A stretch of 64,000 bases of DNA, taken from contig NZ_VFIY01000004.1 in NCBI RefSeq assembly GCF_006385175.1, forward strand, positions 124,001-188,000. The letters run 5' to 3'. This document shows positions 38,418 through 59,873 of this stretch, one piece after another. The translations under genes and the position numbers were made by a program. The notes under the pieces were generated by a model. It made no database searches. It worked only from the letters and a program-made list of their open reading frames with translations, and was not told the DNA's origin. Origin of the DNA: Emcibacter nanhaiensis (GTDB lineage: Bacteria; Pseudomonadota; Alphaproteobacteria; Sphingomonadales; Emcibacteraceae). Numbering within the stretch: position 1 is the first letter of the stretch; the number at the start of each line of letters is the position of its first letter.

Positions 38418-38494
38418 CGGAATGTAGCGCAGCCTGGTAGCGCACTTCACTGGGGGTGAAGGGGTCGTCGGTTCAAATCCGGCCATTCCGACCA
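38418..38494 (+). tRNA. tRNA-Pro(GGG)
   Basis: 77 bases including an encoded CCA. Acceptor stem CGGAATG / CATTCCG, D-stem GCGC / GCGC, anticodon stem CTTCA / TGAAG with loop CTGGGGG giving anticodon GGG (38452-38454), and T-arm with GTTCAAATC. Discriminator base A at 38491. The 3' part from 38448 doubles as the left attachment site of the island, so the integrated element has rebuilt the complete tRNA. Confidence 0.97.
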
Positions 38495-38502
38495 AAAGAA
38501 AA
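38448..38502 (+). repeat. attL: left 55-bp direct repeat (tRNA-Pro 3' part)
   Basis: Starts in the anticodon stem-loop (CACTGGGGG) and runs through the CCA end and eight bases beyond. Identical over 55 bases to 59788-59842. It is the left junction of the island, with the tRNA kept intact. Confidence 0.95.
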
Positions 38503-38535
38503 ACCTGCTTACTCAATGAGTTGGCAGGTTTTTTC
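38501..38535. terminator. Bidirectional terminator shared by tRNA-Pro and the integrase
   Basis: Stem AAACCTGC (38501-38508) / GCAGGTTT (38524-38531). On the plus strand TTTTTTC follows, ending the tRNA transcript; on the minus strand TTTTTCTTTT follows, ending the integrase transcript. The integrase stop codon lies in the loop. It is island DNA, so it replaces the original tRNA terminator now found at 59844. Confidence 0.8.
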
Positions 38536-39792
38536 TTGGATATCTATTTGCTCACTTTCAGATTTTTGGGTGCATTTTGGGTGCAAATCGAAGTCAACCG
38601 CCTGCTCCAGCTCCTTGAAATAGGCATTGAGACCCTGGATCACCGTACTTTCCGTATCGGGAACATACTGAGCATATCCTTCCGTTATCTCCAGTCCGCC
38701 AGCGGCTTGATGTCCCATATGTCCTGATAATTCCCAAGGATCGATTATAAAGCCGTATTTTTTCTTCAGCGCAGAGTTGGTGCGTAATGTTTTTGCGATA
38801 CTGTGACGGATGGTCTTGGTAATGATATCTGTTGGCCACTTCAGTTCGGTACGCATTGTGCGCCAGGATTTTTTAATGCTCTTCACTTGGTCATTATTAT
38901 ATTGAACAAAATAACCTGATTCCTTTTTGAGCCATTTCACCAGCAACTCAGGCACAGCTACAACAGGTCGTCTCTTGGAAGTCATCCGTCTTTTGGGAGG
39001 ATTTAGGTCGAGTAAGCCCTGGGTCCAGTCCATCTGAGAACCAACATGCAGTTCAAGTACAGTTTGAGGGCGGGCGATGGTTCCGATACTGCAAATAATG
39101 AATTTGAAGAGGTAATCCATTTTATGGGTATGGGCATAGGTGAGGGCGTCTGCCATCATTTCAATCGAGATAAAAGCTGTTCTGGGCCCATTAAGTTCAT
39201 ATCGTGAGAGGCCGGGAATATAAGGACAAATGCTGATGTCTCCGTTCTTGTAGGCCCAATTGATAGCCGCGCGAATATACTTAACATAGGTCTGAACTGT
39301 ATTCGGTGAGATGTCTTTTTTAGAAGCTCGAACTTTGACTACTTCTCCTTCCTCATTGTGAACAACTCTAATGGAATGAGTTAGCCGCCAGGCAATATAT
39401 CTTCGAATATATCTAGGAGTGAGATCAGAAAGCATTGTCAGGCCGATCACCCGACCGGCATCTTCCTCAAGGTCAATAAATTTTGTGAAGGACAGAATGG
39501 CGGAATTGATCACTTGGGCGGCTGTTAATGTTCGTCCATGTTCAAGCCAATAGTTTGAGAGGATTTTGCGAATATCGGCATCGACTGGTGCCGCCTTTAT
39601 TTGGGTGCGGGATGCATAATAATGCTCGTCAATTAACTCTTTGGCACGCTCAAAACTTTCTTCATGTGTCGTCTTGCGGCGAGTTTTTCTCTTTCGGGCG
39701 TCATACCAATAGATGTACCAGCTTGAGCTTTCGTCTTCTCGGCCAAGCCAGAATTTTCCGACCTGATATTCTCGTTTGCCTCCTTTAGACAC
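38509..39792 (-). CDS. int: Tyrosine site-specific integrase
   Basis: 427 residues. An N-terminal arm-binding region and a SAM-like core-binding domain (residues about 70-190) precede the catalytic domain. Catalytic residues seen: Arg in GTIARPQTVLEL, the box II KTIRHSIAKTLRT (Lys where most have His, followed by Arg-His), LSGHMGH, and the nucleophile Tyr in ITEGYAQYVP. It cuts and joins the tRNA-Pro core site. The start is GTG 39792 with a perfect AAGGAG 8 bases upstream. The gene ends inside the terminator hairpin next to attL, the usual arrangement for tRNA-targeting islands. Confidence 0.93.
   Translation of the reverse strand: MSKGGKREYQVGKFWLGREDESSSWYIYWYDARKRKTRRKTTHEESFERAKELIDEHYYASRTQIKAAPVDADIRKILSNYWLEHGRTLTAAQVINSAILSFTKFIDLEEDAGRVIGLTMLSDLTPRYIRRYIAWRLTHSIRVVHNEEGEVVKVRASKKDISPNTVQTYVKYIRAAINWAYKNGDISICPYIPGLSRYELNGPRTAFISIEMMADALTYAHTHKMDYLFKFIICSIGTIARPQTVLELHVGSQMDWTQGLLDLNPPKRRMTSKRRPVVAVPELLVKWLKKESGYFVQYNNDQVKSIKKSWRTMRTELKWPTDIITKTIRHSIAKTLRTNSALKKKYGFIIDPWELSGHMGHQAAGGLEITEGYAQYVPDTESTVIQGLNAYFKELEQAVDFDLHPKCTQKSESEQIDIQEKTCQLIE
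38566..38585 (+). repeat. Putative integrase arm sites, left end
   Basis: Two TTGGGTGCA copies (38566-38574 and 38577-38585), start to start 11 bases apart, same orientation. The same doublet with the same spacing lies near the right end (59689-59708). They fall inside the 3' end of the integrase gene, about 65 bases from the core. Confidence 0.6.
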
Positions 39793-40272: not shown

Positions 40273-41835
40273 TCAGGCCACTTGACTGGAACATCTTGGA
40301 AAAGCTTCCTCGGGAGGAAGGCTTTCGGAAGGCTTCTCCGGTATCTTTCTGTCTGCAAGCAGCGCCTTAAAGGTGGCCTTGATGCTTTGGGCATTCTCGG
40401 ACACCAGTTCTCCCATCAGATGCAAAGCCTCCGGCTCTGTGGGCAGGCCGCCATGGGCGAGGGCGCACAGCACCTCCCCGGAGGCTTGAAGCCGGAAACA
40501 GGGTTCTTCAATATCCATCAGGCTGGCTGAGGAACTGATCTGAGTGTCGTCGCACAACTGGGTTGGTTCAGGACTATCTTCAGGCTCGTCTTGATCCTTA
40601 GATGGGTTGTTAGTTAGGGGGTCTTCTTTGCTACTTTTGAGCTCCCGCATCTTGTCGAACAGGCCGTAGATGCAGTCTCTCAGGTGAGAAACCCGTTCCT
40701 TACAGACATTGACCATCAAATAAAGCCGGTCCTTCTCTAGTTCCTGATCTTCCGTATGAACGAAATGCAGGACATCTGCTGCACGCATGGCGTCACAGGC
40801 TGGGCCTTCAAGGTCCCAGACCGCATGATAGAACTGATTGAGGGAGGACTGGTCTATCTCCGCTTTATGGCCCGGTTCCACAGGCCGGGCAGGCAGTACC
40901 TCCTTCTGAAACTCAGTGCTGATCTCAAGCCAGTCATTGTCCGGCTTGCCGGTATGGCCGTCTTTAAGGGCGGACAGTTTAAGGCGGCAGAGATAACGGA
41001 CCATCCGCAACAGGTCCTCTGACCGGCCAATCATTTGATCAAGCAATCGCGCATCCGGGCAGTAGTGGTCTGAGAAACGGACTCCTGTAAAGGCAGTGCG
41101 CAGATAGTGAAAGCTCTGCTTCCCGCCTTTACCGGCCCAAGGCAATTGAAGTTCCGGATGAATGCTTTCAGCCAATTCCCGGAGCGTGATCAGAGTGTGG
41201 TAATAGGGCCGCTGCAGGGTATGAACCCGCATGAAGGCGAGATAGGCTTGTTCTGCCGCCAGATGAAGCATTATGGTGGCAGGTTCAAACTCTCTTTCCA
41301 AATGGTGACGATAAGCTCCCTGCAGAAAGTAACAGGCCAACGTCCAGTCGTGTTCGAAAAACTCCTTGGCTTTGGAATGATGAATATCAGGGGTGGGGTT
41401 TTCGGGAGCAGACAGAAGGTCCAGGCCACGATCCCCGGACTGGTAGAGGATGATGCCATTCTCTGCTATGCGGTCGTAAAAGGCATAACCGTTCCGGAGT
41501 TTGGCGTTCACAGTCTCCTGTGTCTCGAACGTCAGGGCGACGGGGGTGGATACGACATCGAGGCTATTGAGAAAGACCTCGGCCATCTCTACCGGCCAGA
41601 CAAAGGCGGGAAGCAGCTTATTGACGATCACCAGAAGATGATAGCGGGACGGGGTAACTTCCTGATCCTCAGCAGTCCATTCCCCGTGCAGGATTACATA
41701 CCGGATACGGGACCGTCGCTGTTTGCGGCTCGAACAGGTGCGGGCCGTCTTATCATATTGCTCAACGAGGGATCGACAGATGAAGTCCAATTCTTCTTGG
41801 ATTTTTGGGGTAAAATTTTTGGTAGTGACGATCAT
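40273..41835 (-). CDS. Degenerate nucleotidyltransferase-HEPN fusion protein
   Basis: 520 residues. N-terminal residues about 10-125 follow the minimal nucleotidyltransferase pattern, but the motif is decayed: YVILHGEWTAEDQEVTPSRY, then HLLVIV sits where active enzymes have GS-x-x-x-G and D-x-D. Residues about 155-290 look like a HEPN domain (ACYFLQGAYRHHLEREFEP, ATIMLHLAAEQAYLAFMRVH, YYHTLITLRELAESIHPEL). The C-terminal 230 residues are unique to it, partly acidic and low in complexity. HEPN proteins are often RNases, and MNT partners antitoxins; here both are in one chain. GGGGAG precedes the ATG. Divergent from the XRE gene. Confidence 0.7.
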   Translation of the reverse strand: MIVTTKNFTPKIQEELDFICRSLVEQYDKTARTCSSRKQRRSRIRYVILHGEWTAEDQEVTPSRYHLLVIVNKLLPAFVWPVEMAEVFLNSLDVVSTPVALTFETQETVNAKLRNGYAFYDRIAENGIILYQSGDRGLDLLSAPENPTPDIHHSKAKEFFEHDWTLACYFLQGAYRHHLEREFEPATIMLHLAAEQAYLAFMRVHTLQRPYYHTLITLRELAESIHPELQLPWAGKGGKQSFHYLRTAFTGVRFSDHYCPDARLLDQMIGRSEDLLRMVRYLCRLKLSALKDGHTGKPDNDWLEISTEFQKEVLPARPVEPGHKAEIDQSSLNQFYHAVWDLEGPACDAMRAADVLHFVHTEDQELEKDRLYLMVNVCKERVSHLRDCIYGLFDKMRELKSSKEDPLTNNPSKDQDEPEDSPEPTQLCDDTQISSSASLMDIEEPCFRLQASGEVLCALAHGGLPTEPEALHLMGELVSENAQSIKATFKALLADRKIPEKPSESLPPEEAFPRCSSQVA

Positions 41836-42870: not shown

Positions 42871-43521
42871 ATGAAGGCAAAATTCCTTACAGCTCTGATG
42901 GTTATAGCGTCAATTGTGTTTGGCACCTTAATAGGTGTGGGAATTTCGTACTTCTTTCTAAATTCTTATGAAGCTTCGGGCTGGGTGTTAAATTCCGGTG
43001 CAAATGAATTAAGGGATTTATCCCCAGAAGAAAAGATAGCACTTGCGGAAATGGTAATCAGTAGGAATGTTTTCTCTGCTTCTGACTTGCTTGGGAGCTT
43101 CACATCTTATTACCATTTTCTCATCTCAATTCTACTTACAATCATCGTAGTAATGGCAGGTTTTATTACCTTTAATTTCTACAAGAGCAAAGAAGAACAT
43201 GACAGTATTCTTAAAAACAGGCTGAATGAACTAATAAAGAACTTTGATAGAAGAATAGGTAAAAAGGAAGCAGTCGATCATTTAGAAGATTATGAAGCTC
43301 TTCATGATTACCTCGAACAAAAGATAGTAAGTTTAATTGAAGATTCAGAAGACCTTCAAGACCATTTGGATTGGCAAATTGAGAACATAAGTACAGAAGC
43401 GTTGGATGAAGCTATAATTGACAGAGTAATGTTGTACAACATATGCCAAAACATAAGATGCAAAAATGGTGAACCTCTAGAATTAGTCGAAGGGCCAGAG
43501 GAGGCTGACAATGCTGGGTAA
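42871..43521 (+). CDS. Two-helix membrane protein, first gene of the ImmA-Beta operon
   Basis: About 216 residues. Membrane helices at about 4-28 (ALMVIASIVFGTLIGVGISY) and 80-102 (FLISILLTIIVVMAGFITF), with a 50-residue loop between, probably periplasmic, then a cytoplasmic, acidic, helical C-terminal half (DHLEDYEALHDYLEQKIVSL). No family recognised. The start has GGGGTGG just upstream; GTG 42862 is an alternative. It overlaps the peptidase gene by 11 bases, so the two should be produced together; it could be a membrane effector or sensor. Confidence 0.75.
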   Translation: MKAKFLTALMVIASIVFGTLIGVGISYFFLNSYEASGWVLNSGANELRDLSPEEKIALAEMVISRNVFSASDLLGSFTSYYHFLISILLTIIVVMAGFITFNFYKSKEEHDSILKNRLNELIKNFDRRIGKKEAVDHLEDYEALHDYLEQKIVSLIEDSEDLQDHLDWQIENISTEALDEAIIDRVMLYNICQNIRCKNGEPLELVEGPEEADNAG

Positions 43522-44101
43522 CAACTTAGACCAAATAGTATCATCACTTACTGCAGAAGCTCCTGTGATAGAAATGCATGACGGTGAAATTCCCGAATTC
43601 GGCTATAGCGACGATAGTTCTAGAGCTCTTACTTGGTTAAGGGGGGTAAACACGTCGACATCGGATAAATTTGACATTGAAGGTGTCCTCGAAAGTTTGA
43701 ATGTTAAAACACATTATGAAGAAATGGGTTCTGACAATGACCTTTCTGGCTACATCGAGAAGCGCCATAATGGTTGGCATATTGGTGTAAATAAATATGA
43801 GGTTCCAGGACGCCAAAGATTTACATTGGCTCATGAATTAGCCCATTTGTTGTTTCATCGACAAATTATCCAAGGGCGATTTGAAGAAGCCATAAAATTA
43901 TTTAGAAGTGGTGATAACACAAAGCATATAGAGATGGAGGCCAATGCTTTTGCAGCTGAACTTCTAATGCCAAGTTCTCGTTTTCGTGAATTATGGCAAA
44001 GTGATACCTCTCTTGACGAAATCTCAAATGCCTTTGCTGTTTCCCGTTATGCCGCAGAATTTAGAGCTAAAAAATTAAGCCTTCCAAGGAAACAGGTTTA
44101 A
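43511..44101 (+). CDS. ImmA/IrrE family metallopeptidase
   Basis: 196 residues. Zinc motif H-E-L-A-H at residues 108-112 in RFTLAHELAHLLFHRQ, third ligand Glu143 in IEMEANAFAAELLMP, the classic M78 layout. No HTH is fused. In ICEBs1 and Deinococcus, such peptidases cleave a repressor upon damage; here no obvious repressor substrate is in the operon. Overlap with the membrane protein gene (11 bases) and a 6-base gap to the Beta gene show tight coupling. Confidence 0.92.
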   Translation: MLGNNLDQIVSSLTAEAPVIEMHDGEIPEFGYSDDSSRALTWLRGVNTSTSDKFDIEGVLESLNVKTHYEEMGSDNDLSGYIEKRHNGWHIGVNKYEVPGRQRFTLAHELAHLLFHRQIIQGRFEEAIKLFRSGDNTKHIEMEANAFAAELLMPSSRFRELWQSDTSLDEISNAFAVSRYAAEFRAKKLSLPRKQV

Positions 44102-44107
44102 GACACG

Positions 44108-45232
44108 ATGGTATATTTCCCTCAAATCAAAACAACCACCGCCGAACTGAAAGCGTTTAAAAACCTGCACTCAAGAGAAGATGATGAAATTGTAGTTCCG
44201 ATTTTGCAGCTCACAAAACCTCGGCTCTCGAGAACATTAGATCCTTTGCAGTCTCTCGAGAACCATATGGAACGTGTTTTTAAACGTATAGGTAAGAACA
44301 AAAAAACTATTGTCGACATCACGCAAGATGAAACGTACCAAGATGCAAATTTAAATCAGTTCATTCATGATTCATCAGACGGATATATTCACTGGATTAA
44401 TCACCTCAACATAATACGTACAGATTACAATAAAAACATTATTCCAAGTGTTATAGGCAAAGCCGCCCCCGATACACTTCCTGAATTAATAAGACAAATT
44501 GATAGTTTATATAACGATTACGATAATTTCTCGATCAGGTTACCTGCAAATGTGGGGGAAGACTTTTCGAAACTTCAAGAAATGTTTGATTTGCTGGGGC
44601 TAACTGAAAAAACAGACAAACTTTATGTCCTGTTTGACTTCAACTACGTTGGAAGCCCCCATATTGAAGAGCTGAAGGGGACAATAAATGTATTGGATGA
44701 AAAGCTATGGGATCTCAATTGGCAAAGCACGAACGTGATACTCTTTAGCTCTTGCCCTTCTAGTTTTCGTATAGGCAATCGCAATCCCGGGACATTAGAA
44801 CAGCAGAATATGGCGGAATACGAAATTCTAGAATATGTACAGAATCATTGTGATGGAATAAGCTATGGTGATTATGCGTATATTCATCCTGAACGGACTG
44901 ATGGTGGTGGTTTTTGGCTACCTCGTATTGACTACCCTGCTGCTGATCAAATTTGTTACTACATGAGGGAATTCAACAAAGACATGTCTCGTAATCCGAA
45001 CACCGGAAAGCTGACAATTGAAACAACAGTGCCTAATGATAAAGCCTACAAGAATATTTCTGAAAATATTTCGCACGAATTTTTTTTCCAGAATGACCCA
45101 CTCCAAAGTTGGGGACGCAATCAAATATTGGAAAACATATCTGCCGACAAAGTCACGGGAAAGAGCCCTCAACATTACATAGCGGTTAGATCAAACATTC
45201 ACATGGAGAGAGTGATATCCTTTATGCGCTGA
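44108..45232 (+). CDS. Beta-protein family protein (sce7725-like)
   Basis: 374 residues. YFPQIKTTTAELKAFKNLHS and IVVPILQLTKPRL at the start, a central DFNYVGSPHIEELKG, and the ending SPQHYIAVRSNIHMERVISF match the Beta-protein family (named, as I recall, from phage genes and often annotated as sce7725). It has a TIM-barrel-like alternation of strands and helices. Function unknown. It is the third gene of the operon, and its stop abuts the stop of the convergent sce7726-type gene without a base between. The two families often travel together. Confidence 0.82.
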   Translation: MVYFPQIKTTTAELKAFKNLHSREDDEIVVPILQLTKPRLSRTLDPLQSLENHMERVFKRIGKNKKTIVDITQDETYQDANLNQFIHDSSDGYIHWINHLNIIRTDYNKNIIPSVIGKAAPDTLPELIRQIDSLYNDYDNFSIRLPANVGEDFSKLQEMFDLLGLTEKTDKLYVLFDFNYVGSPHIEELKGTINVLDEKLWDLNWQSTNVILFSSCPSSFRIGNRNPGTLEQQNMAEYEILEYVQNHCDGISYGDYAYIHPERTDGGGFWLPRIDYPAADQICYYMREFNKDMSRNPNTGKLTIETTVPNDKAYKNISENISHEFFFQNDPLQSWGRNQILENISADKVTGKSPQHYIAVRSNIHMERVISFMR

Positions 45233-53065: not shown

Positions 53066-53204
53066 TCACCCGCACAACCCTTCCAGCACAAAACGGATCT
53101 TCTCTTCCGCACTGAACTGACGGCGGGTCGCCCGGCGGATATCCTTCACCGTCTTTTTCCGCGCTGCCTTCTTTGGGATTTTTGACTATATGTTTTCGTG
53201 TCAT
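53066..53204 (-). pseudogene. Fragment of an IS3-type transposase OrfA
   Basis: On the minus strand the ATG frame codes MTRKHIVKNPKEGSAEK, then the frame shifts by one base and continues TVKDIRRATRRQFSAEEKIR, FVLEGLCG, then stop. This is the start of the well-known OrfA of IS3-type elements. The rest of the transposase and the inverted repeats are missing. It marks an old insertion inside the island, between the glycosylase and helicase genes. Confidence 0.75.
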
Positions 53205-53310
53205 CTTCGTTCCTTCGTCGCTTCGATAGACCCGAAAACATAACCTTATGTATGAACCTTAGTTTATCCAACTAGATCTGACGGGGAATAAGCCAAAAAA
53301 TATTTAGCTC

Positions 53311-53348
53311 TTTACATTAAATATATCATTTGCTATCATTTGCTATCA
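53311..53348 (+). promoter_or_regulatory. Promoter with tandem-repeat operator for the HTH-helicase gene
   Basis: TTTACA (53311-53316), 17-base spacer, TATCAT (53334-53339): a good sigma-70 promoter. A tandem repeat of ATCATTTGCT (53325-53334, 53335-53344, partial 53345-53348) covers the -10 and runs up to the AGAGGA ribosome site. A protein binding it would block transcription; the gene's own N-terminal HTH is the obvious candidate. Confidence 0.65.
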
Positions 53349-53362
53349 GATAAGAGGAATTC

Positions 53363-55393
53363 ATGAGTAAAACAGCAGCTGAATGGCTTTCCATGGAAGA
53401 AGCGGCATCTCACTTGGGGATGGGCAAAACAGTTCTTTACGATCTCGCTCGCACCGGGGGAATTCCTGCGCGTAAACTCGGTAAGAAGTGGGCATTTGAT
53501 AGAAAAAGTTTGGATGCATGGGTGGATGCTAACCGGCCGCTCGAAGAGTTTTTCACCGATATGGATTTTGATATTGAAGGCAACGAATGTGTGCGTGAGC
53601 CGCAGCGTGATGGGTATTTGCGTACTTACGAATTTTTCCACTCCGGTAAAAACAAAGCGATCCTTCAGATTCCAGTGGGTTGTGGGAAAACGGGGCTTTG
53701 TTCGTTGCTGCCACTCGGCATGGCCAAGGGGAGGGTTCTGATAGTAGCCCCAAACCTAACGATTAAAAAAGGGCTGTATGATGCGATGGACATCACCAAT
53801 AAGCAAAAATGTTTTTGGTTGAAAACCGGTGTGCTAAAGCCGGAGCAGCTGCTTGCTGGGCCGTGGGCCTCCACCCTCGATAGTGGCAATATCTCCACCG
53901 CCGAAAAATCGCATATCGTCATTACGAATATACAGCAACTCGCAACTAACGTAGACAAATGGTTGACGCAGTTCACTGATGATTTCTTTGATATGATTAT
54001 CGTGGATGAGGCGCATCATAGTGCAGCTACTAGCTGGCAGAAAGTAATTGACCGGTTCCCATCCGCAAAAGTCATACTACTGACAGCCACCCCTTTCCGA
54101 AGTGATCGAAGAGAGTTGGACGGAGAACTCGTGTATCGCTACTCTTTCCGCAGTGCTACGCTTAAAGGTTATATCAAACGGCTTAAGGCTAGTTATGTTG
54201 CGCCAGAGACAATAGAGCTTGGATTCACGGATGAGGGTGGAAAAGTTTATACCCTCAATGAAGTGATGAAGCTAAAAGAAGAAACGTGGTTCAGTCGAGG
54301 GGTGGCGCTTGCTCGTGTATGTAATCAACATATTGTTGATAGCAGTTTGCAGAAACTGGAAGAACTACGTCAAAGCGGCACACAACACCAGCTCATCGCG
54401 GTGGCTTGCTCTATCAATCATGGCAGGGAAATCCGCTCTCTTTATCGGGAGCGTGGATATACTGCAGAGATCATCCACAGCGAACAAACAGAAGCTGAAC
54501 AGGGTGCGGTATTGGCGGATTTACGCAACGGCACGCTTGATTGTATTATTCAGGTGCAGATGCTTGGAGAAGGTTTTGACCACCCCAAGCTAAGTGTGGC
54601 CGCCATATTCCGGCCATTCCGCTCGCTCGCCCCTTACATTCAGTTTGTGGGGCGGATTATGCGGGTAGTGGTTCAGAACAACCCAGCTCACCCTGACAAT
54701 ATGGGGCATATCGTAACTCACCTTGGGCTTAATCAGGATAAGCAGCTAGAAGCATTCAAAGATTTTGAAAATGACGATCACAAATTCTGGGAAAGTATTG
54801 TTGGCGGTGAAGAGTCAGAAGTGCCAACGGAGACAAGAGAGGGAAATACTCGACTCCGGGCAGGTGATCAGGTCGTCGTACATAACGAAATTGTTGATGG
54901 GTTGTGGGAGGAAGACTTTACCAGCATGGAAGACCAGGAGATCATCCAAGACCTCCGGGAACGGTTTGAGCTTCTGGGACTAGATCCATCTCAGGTAGAG
55001 GCCATGGTCAAACAGGCCATGCAAAAGGGGATGAAGAAAAACGCTCCCACTGCTCCGTTTCCTGTCCAACCGCAAAGGGAATGGGAAGAAGCTAGGCGGC
55101 GGTTAAATGAAGAAGCAAAACGGTTGGCTAAAGTTCTACTGAATCACGTCGAAGTAGAAATGCAGGGGCGTGATTTGGTGAATTATGGATTGGGTAACGG
55201 AAGAAACAACTACGTATGTGCTCTAATGTTGGTTAATAAAGCTATAAATCAACAGCTAGGAAAGGATAGAGGGGAGGCGGCCGTAGAAGAATTCCGGGCT
55301 ATTTTGGATAACCTGGAAGAGTTGCTGCAGGGGCTGGTAAGAAGAGCAAGAAAGGCGAAATCAGATTATGAGCAAGAAAACCCCCAGAGGTAA
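53363..55393 (+). CDS. Excisionase-type HTH fused to an SF2 DEAH helicase
   Basis: 676 residues. Residues 6-57 form an AlpA/HTH_17 domain (LSMEEAASHLGMGKTVLYDL, KLGKKWAFDRKSLDAWVD). A superfamily 2 helicase follows: Walker A PVGCGKT (104-110), DEAH 215-218 in IIVDEAHHSA, TAT 241-243, and motif VI QFVGRIMRV near 425. The C-terminal 200 residues are charged and coiled. Such a fusion can both choose a DNA site and act on it. AGAGGA 6 bases before ATG. The zinc-ribbon gene overlaps its end by 26 bases. Not a known restriction or DISARM subunit as far as I can tell. Confidence 0.85.
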   Translation: MSKTAAEWLSMEEAASHLGMGKTVLYDLARTGGIPARKLGKKWAFDRKSLDAWVDANRPLEEFFTDMDFDIEGNECVREPQRDGYLRTYEFFHSGKNKAILQIPVGCGKTGLCSLLPLGMAKGRVLIVAPNLTIKKGLYDAMDITNKQKCFWLKTGVLKPEQLLAGPWASTLDSGNISTAEKSHIVITNIQQLATNVDKWLTQFTDDFFDMIIVDEAHHSAATSWQKVIDRFPSAKVILLTATPFRSDRRELDGELVYRYSFRSATLKGYIKRLKASYVAPETIELGFTDEGGKVYTLNEVMKLKEETWFSRGVALARVCNQHIVDSSLQKLEELRQSGTQHQLIAVACSINHGREIRSLYRERGYTAEIIHSEQTEAEQGAVLADLRNGTLDCIIQVQMLGEGFDHPKLSVAAIFRPFRSLAPYIQFVGRIMRVVVQNNPAHPDNMGHIVTHLGLNQDKQLEAFKDFENDDHKFWESIVGGEESEVPTETREGNTRLRAGDQVVVHNEIVDGLWEEDFTSMEDQEIIQDLRERFELLGLDPSQVEAMVKQAMQKGMKKNAPTAPFPVQPQREWEEARRRLNEEAKRLAKVLLNHVEVEMQGRDLVNYGLGNGRNNYVCALMLVNKAINQQLGKDRGEAAVEEFRAILDNLEELLQGLVRRARKAKSDYEQENPQR

Positions 55394-55625
55394 AACCCCA
55401 TCCTTAATAGGTGGAACTAACGGTAAGCCATCTAAGGTTTTAATCCAAAGAAGCTGTAAGTGCTATCGTTGTGGCGATAGCCTAAGCAGTGGCTCATATT
55501 GCATCGAAATACCCCAGCTAGGCGGAAGCTTTACTAACAAGCGGCGGACATGCTTCGACTGCTTTGATAAAATACTGAAACAGACACAGGTAGATTTAAA
55601 AGCATTAGAAGAGTTACTCACTTAG
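55368..55625 (+). CDS. Small zinc-ribbon protein coupled to the helicase
   Basis: 85 residues. Six cysteines in a zinc-binding pattern: Cys30, Cys32, Cys35, Cys45, Cys62, Cys65 (CKCYRCGD, SYCIEI, TCFDCF). The N-terminus is basic (SKKTPRGKTPSLIGGTNGK). The start lies within the helicase gene, so both are translated from one message. Likely a nucleic-acid-binding partner or regulator of the helicase; no family recognised. Confidence 0.72.
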   Translation: MSKKTPRGKTPSLIGGTNGKPSKVLIQRSCKCYRCGDSLSSGSYCIEIPQLGGSFTNKRRTCFDCFDKILKQTQVDLKALEELLT

Positions 55626-55687
55626 CTCTTAGACTCTCACCCAACATTCCCGTTCGGTAATTTTGCATGGATTTTCAATAAGAATAC

Positions 55688-55722
55688 TTGCAAGATGGTC
55701 TTGAAATAGCTATACTGAGCTA
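55688..55722 (+). promoter_or_regulatory. abiE promoter and operator candidate
   Basis: TTGCAA (55688-55693), 17-base spacer, TATACT (55711-55716), with the antitoxin ATG at 55736. An inverted repeat TAGCT-ATACTG-AGCTA (55707-55722) overlaps the -10. AbiEi antitoxins are known to repress their own operon at inverted repeats, which fits. Confidence 0.6.
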
Positions 55723-55735
55723 CAGAGGTAAAGCT

Positions 55736-56335
55736 ATGTCTGAGAAATTGAACGAGTTAAAAAAGCATTTGCGGCCCGGACAGATCTACCGGCGCGCCGA
55801 CCTGTTGGCGTGGTCGAACGCCGTAGATCGTCATTTGAAGCAACTGGTCGAAGATAGAACGCTGACCAAGCTTTCCCAGGGCGTCTATCTATACCCTAAG
55901 AAAACGGCTTTTGGGGAAGCTCCGGCGGAAGATGACAAACTGGTCGAGGCGTTTCTCAAAGACCATCGTTTCCTGCTGACTTCGCCGAATGCCTATAACG
56001 CTCTGGGCCTGGGAACCACGCAGCTTTATAACGAGACGGTGGTGTATAATCACAAAAGGCATGGCCGGTTCAAGCTGGGCGGGCGCTTTTTCGATTTCCG
56101 CGTAAAGCCCTATTTCCCCAAATCCCTGAGCAAGGAGTATTTGCTGGTTGACCTAGTCAATAATCTTGACCGGCTGGCCGAGAATACCGATAGGCTCCTG
56201 CAGCGTGTCCGGGAAAAACTTGCGACGATGGATACGCGAAACCTTGCACGTATGGCCCGCGAGTATGGTAATGTCCGCACAAGGAAATTCTTTGATAATA
56301 CTCTAGCGGAATTACAATTACGCCATGCCGCCTGA
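55736..56335 (+). CDS. abiEi: AbiEi-type antitoxin (DUF6088)
   Basis: 199 residues. N-terminal winged helix: LRPGQIYRRADLLAWSNAVD, then RHLKQLVEDRTLTKLSQGVY and LYPKKTAFGEAP. C-terminal domain with FLLTSPNAYNALGLGTTQLY typical of the AbiEi/DUF6088 group. It represses the operon and, in type IV toxin-antitoxin systems, counters the toxin without binding it. ATG 55736 has AGAGG 7 bases upstream. Overlaps the toxin gene by 11 bases. Confidence 0.88.
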   Translation: MSEKLNELKKHLRPGQIYRRADLLAWSNAVDRHLKQLVEDRTLTKLSQGVYLYPKKTAFGEAPAEDDKLVEAFLKDHRFLLTSPNAYNALGLGTTQLYNETVVYNHKRHGRFKLGGRFFDFRVKPYFPKSLSKEYLLVDLVNNLDRLAENTDRLLQRVREKLATMDTRNLARMAREYGNVRTRKFFDNTLAELQLRHAA

Positions 56336-57275
56336 CCAGTTCTTACATGACCACGACCAGTTTGACGACCTGATCCGCATTGTCGCGGAACAGCGCGGCA
56401 TTGATCCGGCGCTGGCCGAAAAGGATTACTGGATCATGCATTGCCTGTACGGGTTACAGCAGCTTGGCATGGCGTTTGAACTCAAAGGCGGCACCTCGCT
56501 CTCCAAAGGCTACGGCATTATCGACCGTTTTTCCGAAGATATTGATATTCGCATCGAGCCACCCACTGACAGGGACGTGAAAACGAGGCCAAATCATAAA
56601 AAACCCGCACATGTGAAAAGCCGCAGGCAATACTATGAATGGCTGGCCGAAACGGTCCGCATTGAAGGGATCGAACAGGTTGCCCGCGATACGGAATTTG
56701 ATGATGAACGCTACTACCGCAGCGGCGGCATCCGCCTATATTACCCCAGCGTCACCAGCCCGCTGGATGACCTGAAACATGGCATCCTGCTTGAAGTCGG
56801 GTTCGATGATGTGACACCCAATATGCCCAAGGACATCAGCTCCTGGGCGTATGACTTAGCGGCGGACAAGGTGGAAGTGACCGACAACCGCGCCAGGGGC
56901 GTCTTGTGCTACCATCCCGGCTATACGCTGATCGAAAAGCTGCAGACAATTTCAACCAAATACCGCAACCAGCAGGAAAGCAGCAGGTTCCCGCGTAATT
57001 TCATGAGACACTATTATGATGTTTATGCCTTGCTGCAGGAGCCGAAGGTGCAAGATTTTATCGGCACTGAAGCTTACCACGCGCATAAGGCAAAGCGTTT
57101 CAGGACAGCGGATAACCCGGTCATCGACGAAAACGAAGCCTTCCTGCTTAGCGATCCGGCCATCTGGCAGACCTATGAGCAGGAATATTACAAGACGCCG
57201 CGGCTGTACTACACGGAGCAGCCCGCCTTTGATGCAATCCTGAGCAGCATTCATGAATGGGCCGACCGGCTTTAA
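56325..57275 (+). CDS. abiEii: AbiEii-type nucleotidyltransferase toxin
   Basis: 316 residues. Motif I KGGTSLSKGYG (from Lys54) with RFSEDIDIRI (Asp72 and Asp74), then LLEVGFDD and LIEKLQTISTKYRNQ match AbiEii/MenT nucleotidyltransferases. Members add nucleotides to tRNA acceptor stems and block growth, giving abortive infection or element stability. All expected catalytic residues look intact. Confidence 0.92.
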   Translation: MPPDQFLHDHDQFDDLIRIVAEQRGIDPALAEKDYWIMHCLYGLQQLGMAFELKGGTSLSKGYGIIDRFSEDIDIRIEPPTDRDVKTRPNHKKPAHVKSRRQYYEWLAETVRIEGIEQVARDTEFDDERYYRSGGIRLYYPSVTSPLDDLKHGILLEVGFDDVTPNMPKDISSWAYDLAADKVEVTDNRARGVLCYHPGYTLIEKLQTISTKYRNQQESSRFPRNFMRHYYDVYALLQEPKVQDFIGTEAYHAHKAKRFRTADNPVIDENEAFLLSDPAIWQTYEQEYYKTPRLYYTEQPAFDAILSSIHEWADRL

Positions 57276-57683: not shown

Positions 57684-59423
57684 TTACGAGGACTTTTTCT
57701 TGGCTTTTGGCTGTTTTTTCTGAGTGTGTGGACGCTCAACAGGAATGAAACTAATACTCAAATCGCAAAACTTGGGAAGCTGATCTATCAGCCTCTTATG
57801 GGTCATTTTGAGATCGTATTGTGCCATAAAGGGCAGGTCTTTCATTGTTGGTTTTGTCTTGAGATTTTTATCATACAAAAGCCATAAGCACACATTAAAG
57901 CGTTTTGCATCTAGGTCTTTCGCCTCATCTGCTATGGAAGCTAAAATTTTAGCTTTGATAGCTTTTGTAGATTTGTTGATGTGCTCCTTGATTGATGTCA
58001 GAAACGTCTGATCTGTTGCAAAGGCTTCTCCGTAAAAGCGAGCCTGAGAGAACAAATAGTTAATACCGCTTTTGCCACTATACTGTTTGACATGAATGAT
58101 GTTTAAAGGCTGCTTATCGGCTACGAATTCCAGTATATCGCAAAACTCCTTATTTTTGCTTGTTCCTTCCATAGCCAGATATGACTGGTCAAACTTAATG
58201 GCGTTCTTATTTTTAGCGCAATACAATTCATTAAATACAGATTCTCTGTTGTTTCCTTTCTTTGTGCAGTAGATGTTCATATCATGGTATTCTTTATCGA
58301 CGCTTATATCCTTAATCTTATTGAGATAGACTTGTATTGAGTTATAAAAACTATCGTCAACCTTTTGCCATATACCTCCAGATAGAACGTAATGACCTCC
58401 TTGATAAGTGGTTTCATAAACAATACAGGAATATAAGCTCCAGTTTTTAAACTTATGAACTTTTGAATCTGCAAAAGAATAGCCATAAACTTTGCGGCCT
58501 TTGAGAGTCTCAATAGTCACATCATTTAATTTTGCATCATCAAATGTAGGGACATCATCATGACTGAGGTATGAATAAGCATCTCCCTTTTCTGAATAAC
58601 AAAATCCATATTCATCATCACTTATGAATTCAGGAATCGACATATGAAATTTGTGAAAGTTTTTATTTTGAATATCTGCTATCAGTAGGTTGTTTAATTC
58701 ATCTTGTATCGATGTTGGTACGGGTTGGAAATTCAAGTATTCAGGAAACGCCTTTTTAAAATCATTCTTTGAGTAGGCTTTTATAAACTGCGCCGCATAG
58801 TCAGTTAATAGTTTCCAATCCAGCTTTTTCTTGGAGTTTATTTTTATCGTAATATTGTTTTTTCCTTGAATACTAACCAAGGGATTGCCTTTTAAATTTG
58901 CTGAAATGTATTGAAGCATTTCAGTTTCCATTATTCCTAGCTCGTTTAATTCTGATGGCTGACTAACCTGGCGATCAATATGGGTGGTTGTTTTACTGTG
59001 AACGCGACTTTTAGCTTGGCGAAGCCCATCGCTTCCGCACATATTCATAGCTGTTCGAATGCCAAAGTCATATTTAAACTTTTCATTGTTCAGCAATGAT
59101 GCTCCGCTAACACCTAAAGCTGATGCGAGAACACTATCTCCGCACTCTAACAGTAAAACACCGCTGGTGTTTATACTCTTCGAGGCCTTGTATGCTATCT
59201 TATTTTCTTCTGATAGCTGGCTATTGATAAACTTAAGCCAAGGGGGATCGGACTTAGGATTCTTTGTTTGAAAGCAATAAAAACGAGCCTTTTGCCCATC
59301 CTTCTCAAAATCGATTTGTTGAAGAGTTGCCCCCTTCTGCGATAGCTTATCGGATAATAAAACACTATCGAATGTCTCTTTTTCATTGGCAAGATAGAAG
59401 GAGAACTGTCCTATTTCATCCAT
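57684..59423 (-). CDS. DUF6119 / TIGR04141 family sporadically distributed protein
   Basis: 579 residues. The family block is clear at about residues 100-180: ALGVSGASLLNNEKFKYDFG, then IRTAMNMCGSDGLRQAKSRV, HIDRQVSQPSELNELGIMET and EMLQYISANLKG. The C-terminal part (FNVCLWLLYDKN, DLPFMAQYDLKMTHKRLI) follows the same family, ending in a Lys-rich tail. The family is patchily distributed in defence islands; activity unknown. AAGGGG precedes the ATG. The gene is AT-rich compared with the mobilisation genes. Confidence 0.85.
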   Translation of the reverse strand: MDEIGQFSFYLANEKETFDSVLLSDKLSQKGATLQQIDFEKDGQKARFYCFQTKNPKSDPPWLKFINSQLSEENKIAYKASKSINTSGVLLLECGDSVLASALGVSGASLLNNEKFKYDFGIRTAMNMCGSDGLRQAKSRVHSKTTTHIDRQVSQPSELNELGIMETEMLQYISANLKGNPLVSIQGKNNITIKINSKKKLDWKLLTDYAAQFIKAYSKNDFKKAFPEYLNFQPVPTSIQDELNNLLIADIQNKNFHKFHMSIPEFISDDEYGFCYSEKGDAYSYLSHDDVPTFDDAKLNDVTIETLKGRKVYGYSFADSKVHKFKNWSLYSCIVYETTYQGGHYVLSGGIWQKVDDSFYNSIQVYLNKIKDISVDKEYHDMNIYCTKKGNNRESVFNELYCAKNKNAIKFDQSYLAMEGTSKNKEFCDILEFVADKQPLNIIHVKQYSGKSGINYLFSQARFYGEAFATDQTFLTSIKEHINKSTKAIKAKILASIADEAKDLDAKRFNVCLWLLYDKNLKTKPTMKDLPFMAQYDLKMTHKRLIDQLPKFCDLSISFIPVERPHTQKKQPKAKKKSS

Positions 59424-59787
59424 AGTCTTATCCCCTTAGTGACAACTAAACCATGAGGTTGTTATTTTTTCATGAGCACAACCCTACTTCTTTCCTGTTG
59501 ATTATCCAAGCCTGCATTAAGCTTCTTATCAATACCCCTGAAACAACAGAACTATAATACCAACATGGTTCTATGCAATTTTCATATTTATTATCAATGA
59601 GATAAGATGTTGCTTGTAAAAAAATGCGTTAAGTTGGTAGCATGCCCGTGATTTGAACCTTATTGAGGCGCGATTAACATCAAAAGGCTTGGGTGCAGCT
59701 TGGGTGCAAAACAAGCTAGAAATGCCTTAAAATAGATGAAAATACCCGAAATGGGTGAAAAAATAATAGTATTATCATATACTTAGA
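59424..59787. other. Gene-free right end of the island
   Basis: AT-rich. It holds the promoter side of the DUF6119 gene, the second TTGGGTGCA doublet (listed separately), and about 80 bases up to the right attachment core. No gene seen. Confidence 0.5.
59689..59708 (+). repeat. Putative integrase arm sites, right end
   Basis: TTGGGTGCA at 59689-59697 and 59700-59708, same orientation and 11-base spacing as the left doublet. About 80 bases before the core. In the excised circle the two doublets would flank the core as the P and P' arms. Confidence 0.6.
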
Positions 59788-59842
59788 CACTGGGGGTGAA
59801 GGGGTCGTCGGTTCAAATCCGGCCATTCCGACCAAAAGAAAA
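59788..59842 (+). repeat. attR: right 55-bp direct repeat (tRNA-Pro 3' fragment)
   Basis: Identical over 55 bases to 38448-38502, covering the anticodon loop to CCA end and eight bases more. Upstream sequence does not continue as a tRNA, so this is a stranded fragment marking the right junction. Confidence 0.95.
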
Positions 59843-59843
59843 G

Positions 59844-59873
59844 CCCGCTGACCGAGAGGCCAGCGGGTTTTTT
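59844..59873 (+). terminator. Original tRNA-Pro terminator displaced by the island
   Basis: Stem CCCGCTG (59844-59850) / CAGCGGG (59861-59867) followed by seven T. It lies right after attR, where the tRNA terminator would be without the island. Confidence 0.85.

Follow-up and report, generated by a model that had tools for sequence, protein, structure and literature searches.

Here we report a two-gene locus of Emcibacter nanhaiensis in which a helicase with its own DNA-binding domain is followed by a small cysteine-rich partner. The locus lies in a stretch of 64,000 nucleotides (hereafter the window), to which all positions given without a locus name refer. The helicase gene (53363..55393, plus strand) encodes 676 amino acids and overlaps by 26 nt the partner gene (55368..55625, plus strand), which encodes 85 amino acids, six of them cysteines. 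A promoter-like site (53311..53339, plus strand) and a candidate operator of tandem 10-bp repeats (53324..53348, plus strand) precede the helicase gene.

The helicase begins with an HTH_17 domain (residues 8-58; Pfam, 50.9 bits against a cutoff of 27), which is also matched by the NCBI 'excise' model TIGR01764 (36.4 bits, cutoff 28.8), and continues with an SF2 core at about residues 78-435 that comprises ResIII (residues 78-246) and Helicase_C (residues 331-435). The core carries the motifs GCGKT at 106, DEAH at 215, TATPF at 241 and QFVGRIMR at 427. The fusion of an excisionase-type HTH to a DEAH helicase in one chain, and its overlap with a six-cysteine ORF, had both been read from the letters in a first-pass annotation and were borne out here. 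A domain search recognised no nuclease, toxin or other effector domain in the helicase-partner pair. The predicted structure of the helicase is poor mid-chain (mean pLDDT 66), and statements on its fold are confined to the core.

Judged from sequence comparison, the closest characterised relative of the helicase is the DNA repair helicase RadD (YejH), with which it has the SF2 core in common. RadD was the best PDB sequence match (E 6.8e-18), an hhalign comparison of the core with RadD extended over RadD residues 4-345 with 27% identity (probability 99.3), and by fold RadD was recovered with a Foldseek E-value of 8.1e-12 and a VIA Z-score of 14.1, first but tied with SauUSI and others. The RadD equivalog model NF053632 gave 74.7 bits, against a cutoff of 720, in a match ending at residue 436. 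According to the available part of PMC9049331, two zinc fingers form part of the RadD chain, and a zinc-finger cysteine mutant fails to rescue UV sensitivity; that of PMC10238739 describes RadD as binding forked DNA and helping RecA strand exchange. No HTH is found in the RadD match, whereas the protein described here has an HTH and a separate predicted zinc partner and belongs to a sporadic and mobile cassette. Because none of the 43 helicases compared here contains a CxxC motif, the C-terminal region of the window helicase included, while RadD has three (at 384, 434 and 448), the partner may, by analogy, act as a trans zinc element for the helicase. The zinc fingers of RadD were rejected as the origin of the partner, as hhalign found no homology between them (probability 0.2).

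The structure predicted for the partner in the window (mean pLDDT 79.7) is closest to the fingers of PARP1 and DNA ligase III and to C1-type fingers, but all matches are weak: the best VIA match, to PARP1, has a Z-score of 5.0 with an rmsd of 3.0 over 57 residues, and the best Foldseek E-value is 0.36 (0.39 or worse for PARP entries). We take the model to be a treble-clef-like finger, so that of the 'zinc ribbon' named in the first-pass annotation the small cysteine protein stands and the classical ribbon does not. The PARP-type zinc finger family PF00645 had no match in the window partner and reached 17.2 bits, under the gathering score of 39.3, in a homologue of clade C (L033; clades are defined below). 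The window partner also had no PADLOC match at E 0.01 and no Pfam match at E 0.1. A likeness of the partner to Csf1 of type IV CRISPR systems (E 0.0073, 16 bits against a cutoff of 140) was dismissed as a shared finger shape only.

The cassette is located in what we infer to be an integrative mobilisable island of 21.3 kb inserted at a tRNA-Pro gene (38448-59852). The tRNA-Pro gene (38418-38494) overlaps the left copy of a 65-nt repeat (38448..38512, plus strand), which covers its 3' end, and a copy with 95% identity forms the right boundary (59788..59852, plus strand). Inside the island are a phage-integrase-type gene (38509-39792) and genes for a TrwC relaxase, a TraD-like coupling protein, a Beta_protein, an AlkZ-like protein, the cassette, AbiEi/AbiEii and a DUF6119 protein; several of the island's genes are of defence type. 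A 520-aa ORF 3' of the integrase-type gene (40273-41835) had no Pfam match at E 0.01. The Beta_protein (PF14350) gene follows an IrrE/M78-type gene (the two at 43511-45232), and its family name is reminiscent of the gop-beta-cll region of P4. The AbiEi/AbiEii pair (55736-57275) lies directly 3' of the cassette; the best five plasmid matches among 54 matching records are from Methylovirgula, Caulobacter and Rhizobium, with 67.7-69.6% DNA identity. A DUF6119/TIGR04141 gene is found near the helicase in two loci, the window (57684-59423) and L013 (4237-5961), and adjoins the helicase in the latter. Tandem 11-bp repeats ending in TTGGGTGCA are present just inside both island ends (38564-38585 and 59687-59708).

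A genome scan recovered 24 helicase loci with 53-90% identity, hosted by Pseudomonadota, Bacteroidota (Chryseolinea), Nitrospira, candidate phyla, Planctomycetota and others. Helicase matches were present in 372 plasmid records, with 80% or more of the query covered in 34, and in 920 phage records, none of which covered 80%. The helicase is sporadic: in its own family it was detected (E 1e-40) in one of 32 genomes, the own genome, and at E 1e-60 it occurred, own genome included, in 5/385 genomes of the class and 4/397 of the phylum. A tree of the helicase core resolved four clades, each monophyletic: clade A (29 sequences, including the window) with HTH_17, clade B (5 sequences) with a MerR-type HTH (Pfam-tested in L031 and L032), and clades C (5 sequences) and D (4 sequences, support 0.839), both without an HTH. 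Clades A and B, the two with an HTH, form one group (support 0.966), and all four clades group (support 0.952) against four outgroup phage helicases, which do not themselves form one clade. Two sequences, L040 (stop inside) and L051 (cut), belong to no clade, L120 is counted in clade B but was left out of the tree, L001 and L036 duplicate the window, and start codons are uncertain for some genes (L017, L019, L022 and clade D). Clade A members from Bacteroidota, Nitrospira and candidate phyla are nested among Pseudomonadota in the tree, as expected from horizontal transfer. Upstream of the helicase, the DNA of a Brucella oryzae locus (L027), whose helicase frame appears interrupted, is identical to that of an Aminobacter plasmid (L029) over the roughly 154 nt compared, which suggests recent transfer. 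The clade C pair had no DNA match in complete genomes of E. coli.

The small gene, which the first-pass annotation expected to be kept beside homologous helicases, indeed is. It lies 3' of the helicase in 29/29 testable clade A loci (window included), in 6/6 clade B loci and in 5/5 loci of the HTH-less clade C; left out of this count were L017 and L027, with interrupted helicases, and L048 and L049, whose contigs end at the helicase stop, although a partner ORF is present even in L027. Helicase relatives down to about 31% identity are still coupled to a small gene. In 4/4 loci of clade D (L052, L053, L055 and L056) the partner's place is taken by another ORF (104-108 aa), which lacks the cysteine pattern, overlaps or adjoins the helicase and was not assigned to any family. 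When plasmid proteins were searched, the window partner was found in seven records, all with a clade A helicase. Four of the cysteines are invariant and a fifth nearly so among 23 clade A homologues; the seven clade C partners have a C..H..CxxC pattern, and the putative zinc ligands of the four clade B partners are degenerate. Alignment of the partner families with hhalign gave probabilities of 98.4% for B and C (E 8.3e-15), 66.4% for A and C (E 5.5e-5) and 42.7% for A and B (E 2.5e-4), all being single-comparison E-values. Helicase and partner distances were correlated across 23 clade A loci (Mantel r 0.905) and across the 16 closest of them (r 0.856), a value reached in 0/5000 permutations in each case; by this measure the partner coevolves with the helicase in clade A. 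Three loci (L005:8258-8731, L010:7709-8182 and L028:10261-10725) have a third gene 3' of the partner, which encodes 154-158 aa, several of them cysteines; its copy in L028 had no Pfam family above cutoff. The HTH, in turn, is found in the homologues of clades A and B only, and because it is absent from clades C and D it is not the core of the system. Since the partner follows the HTH-less helicases of clade C too, helicase and partner form the core, to which HTH and operator have been added as a switch.

Named defence-system genes were recognised by PADLOC within 6 kb in 7/20 clade A loci, a figure that refers to hand-picked neighbours without a matched control: Shedu (L005), Gabija (L006), Hachiman and type IIG (L007), PsyrT (L008), Mokosh (L012) and Hma genes (L013 and L021). 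Three further loci (L011, L016 and L019) have a restriction-type methyltransferase near the helicase, and the hand-picked neighbours of 10/20 loci gave no PADLOC match. This single scan comprised 30 neighbour ORFs of the 20 loci, one or two large ones each, with L004 and L015 left out; of 180 neighbour ORFs collected, 124 were scanned as a set, from which the best 25 of 384 PADLOC and the best 25 of 117 Pfam families were considered. Annotated records bear this out in part: Shedu is near the helicase in L028, the clade C pair of L124 has a restriction gene of BsuBI/PstI type in its vicinity, and the annotated stretch of L029 contains no defence gene by name. In the two enterobacterial plasmids examined (5.9 and 6.9 kb), the clade C helicase gene overlaps the rep gene of the plasmid, and in further small plasmids the region of the helicase match likewise carries a rep annotation. 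Clade A helicases are accompanied by conjugation or mobilisation genes (TraG, MobQ, CagX, TrwC); a rep family is not among the best 25 of 117 Pfam families of the 124 clade A neighbour proteins, and rep is not annotated in the stretches of L028-L030.

The first-pass annotation knew of no named defence system with this pair, and likewise no system in PADLOC 2.0.0 matched the window pair over its length. The best match of the helicase was mREase_IV (E 2.2e-17), limited to residues 175-435 against 306-553 of 945. Hachiman (HamAB) likewise consists of two genes, a helicase and a partner, and according to the available part of PMC12278908 its helicase senses DNA damage and it has a nuclease effector, HamA, whereas no nuclease was recognised in the window pair. 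The HamB model was not among the 19 PADLOC families that matched the window helicase at E 0.01, and nothing identified the window partner, with neither a PADLOC nor a Pfam match, as a HamA-type nuclease; a HamB gene adjoins the helicase homologue in L007. BrxR, the regulator of a BREX operon, is a DNA-binding protein of a defence setting that binds upstream of its own operon, but it is described in the available part of PMC9122589 as a separate wHTH-WYL protein, whereas in the window helicase HTH and motor share one chain. Mad1 of MADS (NF047737) has the same type of HTH as the window helicase, but its model consists of the HTH alone (49 positions), and the helicase scored 47.8 bits against it over the HTH only, under the cutoff of 80. 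The helicase-partner family has no name in the family libraries or the literature searched, which excluded most subscription journals; the available part of PMC12839542 contains nothing on it.

The promoter-like site upstream of the cassette consists of the -35 box TTTACA, a 17-bp spacer and the -10 box TATCAT, with 10/12 consensus matches and an extended -10 TG. Since six such sites were found at 53150-55800, against 3.7 in shuffles, the match is weak by itself, and the 'good promoter' of earlier notes keeps its consensus letters and its TG but little weight of its own. Those notes had also counted 2.5 repeat copies over the -10, and Tandem Repeats Finder reported exactly this at 53324-53348 (2.5 copies of TATCATTTGC, period 10, 100% match). 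ATCATTTGCT occurs twice in the window, both times in the repeat, and at least two occurrences were seen in 3/100 shuffles. The repeats lie one helical turn apart, on one helix face, and cover the -10, which we infer is what a repressor would need. The two-repeat pattern with up to three mismatches has seven places in the own 3.96-Mb genome, against three for the reversed control pattern: one is exact, at the cassette, and six have 2-3 mismatches, one of these six being the overlapping register. With up to two mismatches, the operator was found in 13 of 15 genomes or records (12/12 genomes and 1/3 plasmid records, with no match in the plasmid records W01 and W03), and in all 13 the letters found are those of the gene's own promoter. 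A wider regulon was rejected: the own genome has one exact site, and the 12 others have one place each, with one extra in one genome, such stray sites with two mismatches being expected by chance because the reversed control pattern has seven places across the same 15 genomes or records. A scan of viral contigs returned 54 with the operator pattern, none of which has the window helicase family downstream (tblastn), and one of which (L101) holds a helicase of 27% identity; the pattern alone is not diagnostic, because several of these matches look like repeats within coding DNA.

Across clade A, the DNA near the start codon follows the consensus tTGac....TAt.TGTCATTTGcTATCATTTGaTATCAaat (29 loci). 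The best match to the window 25-mer in the 31 other clade A loci has a median of 20/25, against a shuffle mean of 12.3; the observed match was reached by at most 3/300 shuffles in 27 of these loci, and the test failed in L024, L025, L026 and L049. DNA at -400 to -120 matched the 25-mer at 10-15/25, no better than shuffles. A -35 box in the register of the window has at least 4/6 matches in 17/32 clade A loci, against a mean of 0.7-2.0 at neighbouring positions; the 32 loci of both tests include close relatives and are not independent, and the -35 lies outside the searched motif, while the extended -10 TG lies inside it and is thus not independent evidence. In the 55 nt upstream, the 32 clade A loci have a self-match of 0.44 at a lag of 10 (z 6.3 relative to other lags) and of 0.35 at the double lag of 20. 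The six clade B loci reach 0.39 at a lag of 10 (z 3.6); their repeats are like GTTGCATAAG and differ in sequence from those of clade A but agree in period and place. The repeat was not detected by lag analysis upstream of the nine HTH-less helicases of clades C and D, where the value of 0.27 is not raised (lag 23 reaches 0.35); far-upstream controls gave 0.23 (A), 0.27 (B) and 0.25 (C and D). The missing repeat in clade C weighs little, because in rep operons the promoter would lie upstream of rep. These comparisons make the putative operator a cross-phylum footprint in clade A. That the repeat appears to change with the type of HTH, and is undetected without one, supports self-repression through the fused HTH; the autoregulation proposed earlier is thus well supported by comparison.

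The reading that we favour, at a probability of roughly 55%, is that of a horizontally mobile, self-repressing two-gene cassette, in which the helicase would be its own repressor and the likely role is protection against invading DNA. The N-terminal HTH would bind the array of two to three 10-bp repeats, all on one helix face, that covers the -10 and the start region, and the bound HTH-helicase would hold the operon at a low level. Core and finger partner, products of overlapping genes, would act jointly on aberrant or replicating DNA, and the partner would provide in trans the kind of zinc DNA-binding element that is built into the RadD chain. The host cell or the element would thereby most likely be protected from invading DNA. 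Protection is regarded as the most likely role because the cassette occurs sporadically, has spread by transfer and is close to named defence systems in a third of the tested loci.

The regulatory part of this reading has two competitors. Direct repeats with a period of one helical turn, together with a fused HTH-motor protein that binds them, are reminiscent of initiator-iteron pairs, and in a mobile setting the array might by analogy be a replication origin with the HTH-helicase as its initiator, rather than a transcription operator; the fixed distance of the array to the -35, its position adjoining the start codon and its mere two to three repeats make this improbable. Still less credible is that the operators are alike only because the fast-moving cassette has a recent common ancestor, and not through constraint: high protein identity between phyla does point to transfer, but the proteins differ from those of the window at up to 48% of positions and the DNA further upstream has fallen to shuffle level, while the operator has kept its median of 20/25.

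The role of the pair is less settled. Because clade C helicases overlap plasmid rep genes, defence, the leading reading of the role, is set at about even odds, and replication or repair at about one chance in three. As a replication or repair accessory of mobile elements, the pair would help a plasmid or excised island to replicate, restart forks or repair itself, self-repression would limit its cost, and its place near defence genes would result from hitch-hiking on mobile elements. The overlapping rep-helicase-partner operons of the two enterobacterial plasmids fit replication better than defence, and the rep annotations in further small plasmids, the conjugation and mobilisation genes near clade A and the relationship to RadD point the same way; the lack of rep among the clade A neighbour families considered and in the annotated stretches of L028-L030, and the named defence-system genes in 7/20 loci, argue against it. 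An unlikely elaboration is that of a 'trigger helicase', in which core and zinc partner would recruit the motor to invading, replicating or damaged DNA, so that the repressor would leave its tandem operator and the substrate itself would induce the operon. Surveillance and induction would then reside in one molecule, with no separate regulator, as a switch portable across phyla together with its operator.

This study defines a RadD-related helicase family with a putative trans-acting zinc partner, and what appears to be new is a cassette of helicase and partner whose proposed repressor switch is fused to the helicase and transferred along with it. If the favoured reading, that of a self-repressing mobile cassette, is right, a single protein would link DNA surveillance to the regulation of the gene that encodes it, and the operator would travel with the cassette between phyla. 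Such a self-contained cassette would be testable in E. coli, and it would explain why a motor is fused to an excisionase-type HTH.
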